This document shows, one piece after another, positions 13,252 to 30,036 of a DNA stretch of 64,000 bases; within the stretch, counting starts at the first letter, position 1; each line of letters starts with the position of its first letter. The DNA is from Subtercola boreus (GTDB lineage Bacteria > Actinomycetota > Actinomycetes > Actinomycetales > Microbacteriaceae), in assembly GCF_003399635.1 (NCBI RefSeq), contig NZ_NBXB01000011.1:1-64000 (forward strand), given 5' to 3'. The notes under the pieces were generated by a model that was not told the DNA's origin, searched no databases, and was given only the letters and a program-made list of their open reading frames with translations. The translations under genes were made by a program, and so were the position numbers.

Positions 13252-13270
13252 CTTTCGTTCAGGCTTTACA

Positions 13271-13306
13271 CAAAGGGCATCCCGGCTTCGGCAGGGGTGC
13301 CCTTTG
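13271..13306 (+). terminator. Terminator after rplL
   Basis: A 13-bp stem starting CAAAGGGCATCCC (13271-13283) pairs with GGGGTGCCCTTTG (13294-13306), with one G-U pair, over a TTCGG-containing loop. There is only a short T tract. It ends the rplJ-rplL unit. Confidence 0.75.
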
Positions 13307-13391
13307 TTCATGCGGATGGTCGCGCTCTCATTTGTGTGGGATAGTTCAGGTAACGATTGTGTATCTGCGGTGAAGAATCCTCTCCACCAGC

Positions 13392-14868: not shown

Positions 14869-14912
14869 GCAAGAAGGTCACGTCGACACAGCTGTCGACG
14901 TGACCTTCTTGC
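14869..14912 (+). promoter_or_regulatory. Perfect 20-bp stem-loop between binding-protein and permease genes
   Basis: Bases 14869-14888 are exactly complementary to 14893-14912, leaving a CAGC loop. There is no T-run after it. Such intercistronic hairpins protect the upstream mRNA or partly terminate, so that more binding protein than permease is made; that role is inferred from position. Confidence 0.75.
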
Positions 14913-20614: not shown

Positions 20615-21769
20615 ATGCCACGCAAACAGCACTTCGAGACCACAGCCATCCACGCCGGCCAGGAGTTCGACCCCACCACCGGTGCGATCATCCCGCCGAT
20701 CTACCAGACCTCCACGTTCGTGCAGGACGGGATCGGCGGCTTCCGGGGCGGCTACGAGTACGCCCGCGGCGGCAATCCCACGCGCACGTCGCTCGAGACA
20801 CTGCTCGCCGCGCTCGAAGGTGGAAAGCACGCGTTCTCGTTCTCGTCGGGGCTGGCGGCCGAGGATGCCCTGCTCCGGGCGGCGCTCGAACCCGGCGACC
20901 ACGTGGTGCTCGGCAACGACGTCTACGGCGGTACCCACCGACTGATCAACACGATCCACAAGAAGTCGGGCATCCTGAACGACACCGTCGAGATGATGGA
21001 CCTGCACGCCGTGCAGAAGGCCGTTGTGCCCGGCAAGACGAAGATCCTCTGGCTCGAGACGCCGAGCAATCCGCTGATGAAGATCAGCGACATCGGGGAA
21101 CTCGCCGAGATCGGACACGCGGCCGGGGCACTGGTCGTCGTCGACAACACCTTCGCCTCGCCCTACCTCCAGAAGCCGCTCTCACTCGCGGCCGACGTGG
21201 TCATCCACTCGACCACCAAGTATCTCGGTGGCCACTCCGACGTGCTCGGCGGTGCGGTCGTGCTGAACGATGAGGAGCTGGCGTCGAAGGTCGGTTTCCA
21301 GCAGTTCGCCGCGGGCGCGGTCTCGGGGCCGATGGATGCCTGGCTCACCGTTCGCGGAATCAAAACGCTCGCCGTGCGGATGGACAGGCACAGCGCCAAT
21401 GCGCAGGCCATCGCCGAGCACCTGGTCGGGCATCCGGCGCTCGAGCGCATCTACTATCCGGGCCTCGAGACGCACCCGGGGCACGAGTTGGCGAAGACCC
21501 AGATGTCGGGTTTCGGCGGCATGATCTCGCTCGGGTTGAAGGCGGGCCCGAAGGCGGCGCGTAAGTTCGCCGAGTCGACGAAGGTCTTCCAGCTCGCGGA
21601 ATCGCTCGGTGGGGTGGAATCGCTCATCGGCTATCCCAGCGAGATGACGCACGCGTCGGTGAAGGGCACCGCGCTCGAGGTTCCCGAGAACATCATCCGG
21701 CTCTCGGTGGGAATCGAGAATGTGGATGACCTGATCGAGGATCTCGACCGGGCACTGCCCCGGCGCTGA
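20615..21769 (+). CDS. metB: Cystathionine gamma-synthase or gamma-lyase
   Basis: The 384-aa protein is a Cys/Met-metabolism PLP enzyme of fold type I: FETTAIHAGQEFDPTTGAIIPPIYQTSTF, YARGGNPTRTSLE, SSGLAAEDALLRAAL, ETPSNPLMKISDI and the PLP lysine in HSTTKYLGGHSDVLGG near residue 205. C-terminal AESLGGVESLIGYPSEMTHASV and IRLSVGIENVDDLIEDL are complete. Sequence alone does not separate synthase from lyase; its position after cystathionine beta-synthase favours reverse transsulfuration to cysteine. AGGAG lies 6 nt before the ATG. The 122-nt gap after cbs is GC-rich with imperfect repeats of CTGACCCGCCGG. Confidence 0.9.
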   Translation: MPRKQHFETTAIHAGQEFDPTTGAIIPPIYQTSTFVQDGIGGFRGGYEYARGGNPTRTSLETLLAALEGGKHAFSFSSGLAAEDALLRAALEPGDHVVLGNDVYGGTHRLINTIHKKSGILNDTVEMMDLHAVQKAVVPGKTKILWLETPSNPLMKISDIGELAEIGHAAGALVVVDNTFASPYLQKPLSLAADVVIHSTTKYLGGHSDVLGGAVVLNDEELASKVGFQQFAAGAVSGPMDAWLTVRGIKTLAVRMDRHSANAQAIAEHLVGHPALERIYYPGLETHPGHELAKTQMSGFGGMISLGLKAGPKAARKFAESTKVFQLAESLGGVESLIGYPSEMTHASVKGTALEVPENIIRLSVGIENVDDLIEDLDRALPRR

Positions 21770-21793
21770 GTCCGGCTGCCGCAGCAGCGGGCG

Positions 21794-22042
21794 TCAGAGG
21801 TCGGCGTCGCCGTACGTCGACTCGTCGCTGTTGCGGCCGGAGGACTCGGTGTCGCTGGCGTCGTCCTCGACGTTCGATTCGTCCTGCTTGTAGAAGATCT
21901 GCTTCTCGTCGACCGGGTCGGCGGTACCGGCCGCGGACTCTTCCTCCTCGGCCTCCTTCCGTGCCGTGAAAGCCTCCTCGCCGGGCACGTGACGTGCGTC
22001 GTCGGGGAACTCGCTTGCGAGGAAGCCGGGGATGTCGCCCAT
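21794..22042 (-). CDS. Small acidic protein of unknown function, 82 aa
   Basis: The protein begins MGDIPGFLASEFPDDARHVPGEEAF and is then strongly acidic and Ser-rich (EAEEEESAAG, ESNVEDDASDTESSGRNSDES), probably largely disordered. I do not recognise a characterised family. The start is firm: AAGGAG lies 7 nt before the ATG. It is convergent with metB, 24 bp away, and follows the ROK kinase on the same strand beyond a large palindrome. Confidence 0.65.
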   Translation of the reverse strand: MGDIPGFLASEFPDDARHVPGEEAFTARKEAEEEESAAGTADPVDEKQIFYKQDESNVEDDASDTESSGRNSDESTYGDADL

Positions 22043-22136
22043 GATCTGTCTCCTTTGTGGGGTCACCCCACCGTAGGCCGACCTCCACTGGCTCACAACC
22101 CGCCCACCCGCCCACCTCGCGCCCGCCCCGGACGAC

Positions 22137-22204
22137 GTTCCGCGCCCGTTTGTCGCTTCCGCCACTGCGCGCGCAGACGCGGAAGCGACAAAGAGGCGCG
22201 GAAC
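22137..22204. repeat. 68-bp near-perfect palindrome
   Basis: The two 34-bp halves around 22170/22171 match by complement at 30 positions; the only mismatches are two adjacent pairs, at 22147-22148 and 22163-22164 against their partners. The centre is CTGCGCGCGCAG. It lies 33 bp downstream of the ROK kinase stop. No T-run follows on either strand. It would fold into a very stable RNA hairpin or DNA cruciform. Confidence 0.85.
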
Positions 22205-22237
22205 CGAAGTGCTGCGGGGCGGAGTGCGGTGGGGGAG

Positions 22238-23215
22238 TCAGGCCGAGCGGGTGAGCCAGGCCGCCGCGCCGAGGAGGGGAGCGTCGTCGAGCAGCCGTGA
22301 GGCGGCAAGCTCCAGGGTGGCGGCGTAGGCGGGGTTAGCTTCGGCGACTCCTGCCCGGAAGCCGGGCTCGAACAGGTCCCACGAGCGTGAGATCGAGCCC
22401 CCGGCCACGAGCACACTGGCCTCGAACGTGGCGAGCCACGGGCCGAGGCAGCGTCCGAGCGCGAAGGAGGCATGCTCGAGCACCCTGGTCGCGGTCGCAT
22501 CACCCGCGCGCATCCGGCCGGCGATATCCTTCACGCTGGTCGTCTCACCCGTCTGCCGGGCGAAGGCGGCGACGATCGCCCGGGTCGAGACGGTGTCCTC
22601 CAAGGGGCCACCGTCGACCTCGAGGAGGTGGGCGGTGCCGTTCGTCGGAACGTCGGCGCGATGTCTGATCGGGGTGCCGTGGTCGAGGAACGTGCTGCCG
22701 ACACCGGTGCCGAGAGTGATGCAGACCGCGCGATCGTGGCCGGAAGCCGCCCCGAACATCCATTCGCCGATGCCGTAGGCGCTCGCATCGTGCACAAATC
22801 GCACGGCAGACGGTTCCGCGCCGAGCCGGGCGGCGAGCTCCCCGCGGATGTCGACCCCGGAGAGGTTCTCGAACTTCGCGACGTTCTCGAAGGTGCCCAC
22901 CCCGCGCTCATAGTCGAACGGGTCGGGCATTGCGATGGCCCAGGCCGCGTCGGCTCGAGCGTCGCCACCCGCCTGGGCGACGGCCTCGCGACAGGCGGAT
23001 GCCCAGATGTCGAGGATTTCCGTGCCCGCCCCGTGGGGGTCGGTGTCAGCGCCCGCTGATGTGACGACGCGAGCGCTGCTGCCGCGCATCCCGACGACGG
23101 CCGCGGTGATGTGGCTGCCGCCGATGTCGGCGACGTTGGCGAGCCGGAGCGCGCCACCATCGTGCTGCTCGGAAGGAGCCTCGTCGGCCAGCGGGAGGGG
23201 AGCGTCATCGTTCAC
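22238..23215 (-). CDS. ROK-family sugar kinase without the zinc motif
   Basis: The 325-aa protein has the ROK ATPase fold: phosphate-1 loop ADIGGSHITAAVVG near residues 30-43, sugar-contact block AKFENLSGVDIRGELAARLG, catalytic Asp in VRFVHDASAYGIGEW, and ITLGTGVGSTFLDHG (phosphate-2). VLVAGGSISRSWDLF is the adenosine loop. It lacks the CxCGxxGCxE zinc cluster found in most ROK kinases and repressors, and has no HTH domain, so it is a kinase of a divergent branch. Glucokinase-like activity is likely but the sugar is not certain. The ATG at 23215 is preceded on its strand by GAGAGGTGA. Confidence 0.82.
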   Translation of the reverse strand: MNDDAPLPLADEAPSEQHDGGALRLANVADIGGSHITAAVVGMRGSSARVVTSAGADTDPHGAGTEILDIWASACREAVAQAGGDARADAAWAIAMPDPFDYERGVGTFENVAKFENLSGVDIRGELAARLGAEPSAVRFVHDASAYGIGEWMFGAASGHDRAVCITLGTGVGSTFLDHGTPIRHRADVPTNGTAHLLEVDGGPLEDTVSTRAIVAAFARQTGETTSVKDIAGRMRAGDATATRVLEHASFALGRCLGPWLATFEASVLVAGGSISRSWDLFEPGFRAGVAEANPAYAATLELAASRLLDDAPLLGAAAWLTRSA

Positions 23216-23313
23216 CTCTCGACTCTAGCCGCAGTGCGCGAGCCGGCAGAAATGACCGCTTCATTGCCATTTTTGCCATCATGCGGAGGGTTCCGACCTG
23301 CCATGGTTGGGTC

Positions 23314-23560
23314 ATGCCCCCACCGGACCACCCCTCCGTCGGGCTCGCCCCGGGCACCGCCCTCTCCGTGGCGGCCGTGCTCGGAACCGGTATTTCCCTG
23401 CTCCCTGCTCTCGCTGAGCAGGTGGCGCAGGGAGTCACGGCGGCCGTTCGCCTACTCGGGCGTTTCACGGCAGGCTGGTGGATGGCCGTGGTTTCGGTTG
23501 CCCCCGTCGCGGTGATCGTCGCCGCCGCGACCCGCCCCGCCCCGCAACGACCGCCCACCA
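23314..23560 (+). pseudogene. Remnant of an amino-acid permease (APC family)
   Basis: The sequence VGLAPGTALSVAAVLGTGISLLPALAEQVAQG strongly resembles the first helix of APC-family permeases. It is joined directly to AAVRLLGRFTAGWWMAVVSVAPVAVIVAAATRP, which resembles a late helix of the same family. The roughly 300 residues expected between them are absent, so this looks like an internal deletion. The frame has no stop of its own and runs into the next gene out of frame. A genuine two-helix protein is possible but less likely. Confidence 0.5.
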
Positions 23561-28889: not shown

Positions 28890-29879
<990 letters not shown>

Positions 29880-29914
29880 GCTGAACTGCCGGGTGCAGCT
29901 GCGGCTCGCGCCGT

Positions 29915-29975
29915 AATTCAGGAGGAGAGCCCCGTCGCGTCGGTATACGACGTGGCCGGGCTCTCCTCCTGAATT
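29915..29975 (+). terminator. Large nested hairpin after nrdF
   Basis: AATTCAGGAGGAGAGCCC (29915-29932) is exactly complementary to 29958-29975, and within the loop CGTCG (29938-29942) pairs with CGACG (29948-29952). There is no T-run. It lies between nrdF and glycerate kinase and is the likely end of the nrd transcript; the AGGAGG in the arm is sequestered in the stem. Confidence 0.6.
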
Positions 29976-30036
29976 GCGTACGGGTGGTGGGAGCGCCAGA
30001 TCTGGGCGCGGGGCAGCGTTGGGGCAGGATGGGAGC

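Follow-up and report, generated by a model that had tools for sequence, protein, structure and literature searches.

A dispersed palindrome family near gene ends in Subtercola, with vertically inherited copies as candidate DNA-binding sites

The near-perfect palindrome at 22137–22204 of a 64,000-nucleotide stretch of the Subtercola boreus genome (the window, meaning that whole stretch) is one copy of a dispersed palindrome family, here called family A, whose copies are biased in position relative to genes, are inherited vertically and are constrained along their sequence consensus. Most copies follow gene ends, and the conservation of many of them across relatives, in place and largely in letters, suggests that they may act as DNA signals. 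We favour, with modest confidence, the reading that the palindrome is a REP/MITE-like element, now fixed, that would be kept as a binding site for a putative protein partner. A REP/MITE-like repeat family had been among the possibilities raised by the preliminary description of this DNA, and that proposal is backed by at least 22 sites in the same genome and by same-locus counterparts in relatives.

The palindrome and its family

A recount and a Markov control upheld the near-perfect palindrome as first described, with 30 of 34 pairs and mismatches confined to two 2-bp blocks. Each half pairs over 10, 14 and 6 bases, and 22137–22204 is the sole position in the window at which an unspaced 68-bp palindrome reaches at least 24 of 34 half-matches, whereas the window, when resampled 20 times under an order-1 Markov model, gave maxima of 20–22. 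Folded as DNA, 22130–22215 reaches -35.9 kcal/mol (z = -6.3), a value equalled by none of 200 shuffles. The left outer arm (22137–22146, plus strand) contains a conserved CGC triplet (0.95–1.0 in the arm profile), and the left inner arm TTTGTCGCTTCCGC (22149–22162, plus strand) is the most conserved block of the family, mostly at 0.79–1.0 per column over the 38 aligned arms of 19 copies. The self-complementary centre around TGCGCGCGCA (22165–22176) holds TGCGC at 0.87–1.0 among the own arms, and the centres of own copies and their orthologues in the relative G003 are 95% identical. By the match string, the right inner arm (22179–22192, minus strand) is the reverse complement of the left inner arm, and the right outer arm (22195–22204, minus strand) follows it.

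The element sits between two minus-strand genes, 33 bp past the end of a ROK-family gene (22238–23215, PF00480, E 2e-22) whose protein has its closest match, at 94% identity, in Subtercola boreus P27444. Past the palindrome starts a small gene of 82 residues (21794–22042, minus strand, from our own gene calling); a Pfam search of its protein gave no match, and in both S. boreus P27444 and S. vilae the gene likewise comes after the ROK gene. The earlier remark that the palindrome far exceeds the genome's terminators in length holds only in part. It is the longest among the inverted repeats listed for the window; however, palindromes of similar length exist, for example at 29912–29978, and when the best palindrome of each gap is taken over 780 kb of the same genome, 22137–22204 ranks joint fourth and fifth.

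Queried with the 86-bp stretch, the 97 contigs (3.85 Mb) of the own genome returned at least 22 distinct sites at E < 1e-5; owing to the symmetry of the element, nearly all of them match on either strand. Aligned, the copies span 72 columns, two of them showing gaps of 1–2 bases, and the arm profile from 19 of the 22 own copies reads, from the outside to the centre, nggttcCGCgcccgtTTGTCGCTTCCGCgccTGCGC. By likelihood, 15 own copies are oriented forward and seven in reverse; an impression of uniform orientation on contigs, formed by eye from symmetric sequences, was discarded in view of this result. The covariance model R2 was built from the 22 own copies with its structure set by hand, the structure that RNAalifold itself gave for the first alignment having 14 pairs only, and within the window its one match is 22137–22204. 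Rfam yielded sub-threshold matches only, the best of them to a microRNA family at 40.9 bits against a gathering threshold of 96, which we took to reflect a generic hairpin shape.

Every copy number obtained with a model is a minimum, with 150 candidates scored per genome and 12–16 in the large searches. R2 matched seven of 12 Subtercola genomes, the own genome included, and none of the other five; its sites number at least about 25 in G001, 24 in G003 and eight in G002, and G004, G009 and G010 hold sequence-diverged copies. Across the Microbacteriaceae sample, R2 matches occur in at least 22 of 299 genomes and 13 of 85 genera. Three Subtercola genomes (G005, G008 and G011) have no match to R2 or to R3, the model of a sister subfamily, and the element is therefore dispensable within the genus, a point against the binding-site reading.

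The arms have an internal repeat. Arm autocorrelation peaks at 19 bp both in family A (0.50 versus 0.30 in shuffled arms; 142 arms) and in the sister subfamily (0.48 versus 0.28; 82 arms), and in both this is the highest value among periods of 8 to 25. The element thus approximates four 19-bp half units, two facing two.

Position, inheritance and sequence constraint

Of 127 copies retrieved around model matches, those at loci of non-standard length were left out, and the other 107, from seven genomes, were classified; with gene calls from a codon-scoring script rather than validated annotation, 51 lie in convergent gaps, 48 in tandem gaps and four in divergent gaps, three are 'inside' a called ORF and one is at an edge. 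By comparison, background gaps of at least 60 bp at the same loci comprise 16 convergent, 67 tandem and 41 divergent ones. For the 103 copies that remain without the three 'inside' an ORF and the one at an edge, divergent gaps are depleted (Fisher, p 9e-9) and convergent gaps enriched (p 2e-9), p-values that overstate the independent evidence because many copies are mutual orthologues. The own copies alone (21; 11 convergent, nine tandem, one divergent) show a convergent excess (p 0.0006) and a divergent lack (p 0.058) against the own gaps of at least 30 bp in 780 kb (86 convergent, 277 tandem, 111 divergent). Copies often lie less than 100 bp from a stop codon.

All 22 own copies have flanks that match, by tblastx, both sides of a copy in at least one relative. 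Such counterparts were found for 18 own copies in G003, 18 in G001, seven in G002, three in G004 and two in G010; when both immediate neighbour genes were required, the numbers were 16, 14, 7, 1 and 1, respectively. A both-neighbour partner in G001, G002 or G003 exists for 20 of the 22 own copies, the two that fail being L005 and L017, which flank one ORF. That ORF had been considered as a companion gene and was dropped, its 3' end running into the palindrome. At the window locus itself, the palindrome is present in S. boreus P27444; in S. vilae, a search with both models between the same two genes found none. The check proposed in the preliminary description, for further copies and for conservation at the locus, hence came out in favour of the repeat family as to multiple copies and divided as to the locus, with one relative carrying the element and the other lacking it.

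Orthologues in the own genome and G003 (17 loci) are 0.90 identical, as compared with 0.76–0.78 for paralogues, and orthologues in the own genome and G001 (15 loci) are 0.83 identical. Because the own–G003 orthologues are closer than paralogues, copying between sites fails to explain the conservation at that scale. By comparison, own–G002 orthologues (0.73; seven loci) are no closer than non-orthologues (0.72), so concerted change is possible at that distance.

Within orthologous gaps, the element is conserved above its surroundings. In 17 of the 18 gaps shared with G003 (L017 left out), which like those that follow cover only loci with a recognizable copy in both genomes, identity is 0.95 in the centre, 0.91 in the stem, 0.86 in the outer arm and 0.685 in the gap remainder, with 22 gap columns in the stem against 1924 in the remainder over the 17 locus pairs. 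The corresponding identities are 0.87, 0.87, 0.74 and 0.654 in 15 of the 18 gaps shared with G001 (L005, L017 and L032 left out), and 0.89, 0.71, 0.60 and 0.53 in all seven gaps shared with G002. A stem at 0.91 in a gap at 0.685 disfavours the mobile-element scar that had been suggested earlier.

Conservation also differs column by column. Over 27 of the 36 shared own–G003 and own–G001 pairs, columns on which paralogues agree to at least 0.85 carried 50 substitutions in 1030 (4.9%), those of 0.65–0.85 carried 70 in 318, those of 0.45–0.65 carried 158 in 588 (26.9%) and those below that four in eight; the pairs left out involve L008 and L027 (indels), L033 (uncertain centre), and L005, L017 and the L032–G001 pair, since there the relative's locus holds several copies. 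Changes thus avoid the family-conserved columns, and the constraint follows the letters of the sequence consensus.

Sister subfamily, pairing evidence and competing readings

In G004 and G010 the diverged copies are built around TTCGAA or CTCGAG, with arms that resemble TTTGGCGCATCCGCG or TTTGGAGCATCCGCG, and 34 of the 41 copies fetched from these genomes, selected by a palindrome score of at least 22 followed by removal of L151, were used to build the sister-subfamily model R3. R3 matched at least 27 of 299 genomes and 14 of 85 genera in the Microbacteriaceae sample, three of these genomes being from the own genus, and at least four of 396 genomes in the order sample, namely the own genome and three of other families; no match was found in G005, G008, G011 or G174. 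It has at least 116 matches over both strands in G004, about 58 sites, and at least 36 matches in the own genome, including sites outside the 22 of family A (e.g., C41:33178, C42:12316 and C19:21733). In another genome, three near-identical sister-type palindromes lie within about 450 bp amid tandem repeats (G134:C27:127511–132000, L170).

The pairing pattern separates RNA from DNA directly on the sense strand, and for this reason we gave it the most weight, its power being moderate. In 48 tandem copies, stem mismatches on the sense strand comprise 29 G-U and 36 A-C (p 0.46), and the 28 of these from the own genome, G001 and G003 have 10 G-U and 22 A-C. The control sets, all small and taken from the own genome, gave 10 G-U versus two A-C for 20 family-free tandem palindromes with at least three T in the next eight bases, six versus two for nine with at least four T, 15 versus nine for all 43 family-free ones, and 14 versus 13 for 21 of motif families. 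Compensatory changes are few. Between the own genome and G003 (17 loci), 65 stem pairs changed on one side and seven on both (3.8 expected), with two of the 72 going from one Watson-Crick pair to another; between the own genome and G001 (14 loci), 79 changed on one side and 15 on both (8.8 expected), with three of 94 going from Watson-Crick to Watson-Crick. With so few compensatory changes and no preference for G-U in the sense reading, these data point to recognition of the DNA sequence. The own–G003 counts also give no evident sign, on short time scales, of the arm-to-arm conversion once proposed from the mismatch pattern.

A part of the evidence runs the other way. Double changes are somewhat above independence in both comparisons (7 vs 3.8 and 15 vs 8.8), which counts against a pure DNA reading. 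Family A covaries weakly, with nine pairs showing two-sided change versus 4.9 expected (reached in 1 of 500 shuffles) and 80.9% of cells paired versus 79.9% (68 of 500). By comparison, the 34 sister-subfamily copies covary strongly (score 0.346 versus 0.176 shuffled, 0 of 500), which argues against a pure binding site, as such a site would need no covariation; subfamily history could be the cause.

These observations bear on the strongest competitor, in which the palindrome would be a bidirectional terminator free of a T-run, or an mRNA 3'-end hairpin, with the shared sequence derived from an ancestral hairpin. Copies at gene ends, their enrichment between convergent genes and the strong covariation of the sister subfamily all suit this account, as do gaps in which species carry different palindromes: three of four gaps chosen for unshared family A (by eye) and two of the five own–G001 gaps in which both species score at least 13. 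Against it stand the sense-strand mismatches, with G-U not above A-C (29 vs 36; 10 vs 22), and a constraint that tracks the sequence consensus. The few changes from Watson-Crick to Watson-Crick (2 of 72 and 3 of 94) are likewise unlike the compensated switches through G-U reported in a Bacillus cereus study (PMC5381666). Furthermore, the order TTT-stem-AAA is the reverse of that of an intrinsic terminator; no T-run directly follows the stem in the sense direction, and a scan of 21500–23500 for the terminator-like pattern with a T-run gave no site, in agreement with the earlier remark on its absence. We regard this account as a serious but unlikely alternative. The mRNA-stabilizing hairpin offered in the preliminary description fares alike, disfavoured by the mismatch counts and the few compensatory changes and retaining some support from the covariation in the sister subfamily.

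Family A shares its genome with many other palindromes. Across the 474 gaps of 30 bp or longer in 780 kb, many more long ones turned up, those of score at least 14 lying in 22 convergent, 26 tandem and one divergent gap. By motifs picked by eye (families B to K), they include nine further families besides the sister subfamily, with two to eight members each in the sample. These nine families, on contigs C11, C29, C41 and C42 (L206–L245; motifs e.g. GAGTGGGCAGTTTGGGCC, GGACGCAAAATGC, GTGAGAC and CCGAAAACTGTCGC), occupy convergent or tandem gaps with one exception. The near-palindrome at 29912–29978 is 67 bp long, of the AATTCAGG...CCTGAATT type, and lies behind the gene 28905–29879; the orthologous gap of G001 holds a different hairpin, and more AATTCAGG palindromes occur elsewhere in the own genome. 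One of these hairpins lies in own C41:114690–114885, in the gap that carries family A in G003 (L087), and the same gap in G001 (C1:3721440–3721600) has no evident palindrome, both as judged by eye. Hairpins in tandem gaps at 14869–14912 and 13270–13307 are kept in G001 with similarity scores of 28 and 34, the latter having a ACAAAGGGC...GCCCTTTGT form like that of an ordinary bidirectional terminator.

Several of the other palindromes differ between close species. Among 138 orthologous gaps of own contig 11 and part of G001, a score of at least 13 is reached in 11 own and 16 G001 gaps; five hold a palindrome in both species, three of which are similar in sequence. The GTGGGCAGTTYGGGCC motif is commonest in G001 (49 matches) and G003 (45), the own genome and G007 having 11 each and the other eight genomes none. 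Three GTGGGCAGTTYGGGCC palindromes lie within 5 kb in G001 (C1:2256942–2261713, L251), and the orthologous own gaps contain no palindrome of score 8 or more, which suggests recent insertion or loss. Near own contig position 267853, only 1 bp separates two flanks that in G001 lie 145 bp apart around a GTGGGCAGTT-type palindrome. Such presence and absence, together with the patchy distribution of the family over genera, would fit a neutral remnant left by a mobile palindromic element of the MITE or REP kind and persisting for want of removal. As to family A itself, S. vilae is without a copy at the window locus and G001 without a palindrome at the G003 L087 gap, with flanks too diverged to define the ends; no locus of the family presented a clean empty site bearing a target duplication. 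However, neutral persistence is hard to reconcile with the counterparts that 18 of the 22 own copies have in G003 and 18 in G001 (16 and 14 when both neighbour genes must match) and with stem identities of 0.91 and 0.87 against 0.685 and 0.654 in the surrounding gap, and we consider it improbable. Family A looks like an old, stable member in a genome rich in palindromic elements.

A replication- or segregation-related site (cruciform or chromosome-organizing), as the preliminary description also envisaged, would suit palindromic DNA at about 22 to 60 sites over the chromosome and is very unlikely given distances to dnaA without bias (KS p 0.69 in G001, over 22 site clusters, and 0.15 in G004, over the 41 listed sites used) and a mixed orientation of 15 to 7.

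Known systems, candidate role and significance

REP/BIME elements of enterobacteria and pseudomonads are short, dispersed, extragenic palindromes, many per genome and near 3' ends, and family A resembles them in each of these respects, with multiple extragenic copies at no fewer than 22 own sites. Unlike REP/BIME elements, it has no match to the Y1 REP transposase PF01797 (E ≤ 0.001) in any of the 12 Subtercola genomes, the own genome included; a control search with the same profile matched five of 14 known genomes. Family A also differs in the internal 19-bp repeat of its arms and in the many copies kept at orthologous loci across species. ERIC/IRU-type and MITE palindromes are long intergenic near-palindromes with no coding capacity, ERIC being longer and enterobacterial. 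Family A is likewise a long intergenic near-palindrome with no coding capacity; it differs in being shorter than ERIC, in having no target duplication found and in its non-enterobacterial host.

The nearest published kinds are REP/BIME elements and the stem-loop families that Cozzuto et al. (2008; PMC2267715) reported from bacterial genomes. Their study covers 40 genomes, with Corynebacterium and Mycobacterium among those named as high-GC, and counts 67 of 92 families as not previously described. Like those families, family A is made up of repeats that share a stem-loop and lie mostly between genes; for those families a function at the RNA level was suggested, whereas the evidence on family A leans to DNA. 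Our search of the open-licence literature returned no paper evidently on these elements.

The preferred reading, a fixed element kept as a DNA-binding site, would run as follows. Ancestors of family A probably spread by some enzyme other than a Y1 REP-associated transposase, and the copies are now fixed and passed on vertically. With each arm approximating two 19-bp units that face the centre, an element would present about four similar half-sites in double-stranded DNA. At present it would most likely serve, at gene 3' ends, as a symmetric site to which a putative protein binds as a dimer or tetramer, by analogy with the palindromic repeats of E. coli, for which binding of gyrase and IHF is cited in the background of PMC2267715.

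A more tentative proposal is that the copies belong to an undescribed Microbacteriaceae system, for DNA binding or recombination, that would mark gene ends with palindromes of 19-bp units. Its sites would tend to stay and, just as tentatively, their letters would change together between clades, with TGTCGCTTCC around a TGCGCGCGCA centre in one form and GGCGCATCC around TTCGAA or CTCGAG in the other, as if protein and sites co-evolve. Support for such co-evolution comes from one orthologous gap in which G003 has a family A copy (L098) and the own genome a sister-subfamily copy (C41:33178), and from the L005/L017 neighbourhood, in which the own genome has family A and G004 and G010 have sister-type copies. 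A further swap, between L003 and G004 L126, is a weaker case in which one immediate neighbour gene only is matched.

REP-like palindromes are often explained by a REP transposase. Family A, with no match to one in 12 genomes of its genus, combines this absence with constraint at the level of sequence at gene ends. With defined sites whose orthologues are available from several species, the candidate binding partner could be fished out directly. In addition, the other palindrome families of the genome include some that differ between closely related species, which makes it possible to compare stable and moving families side by side.
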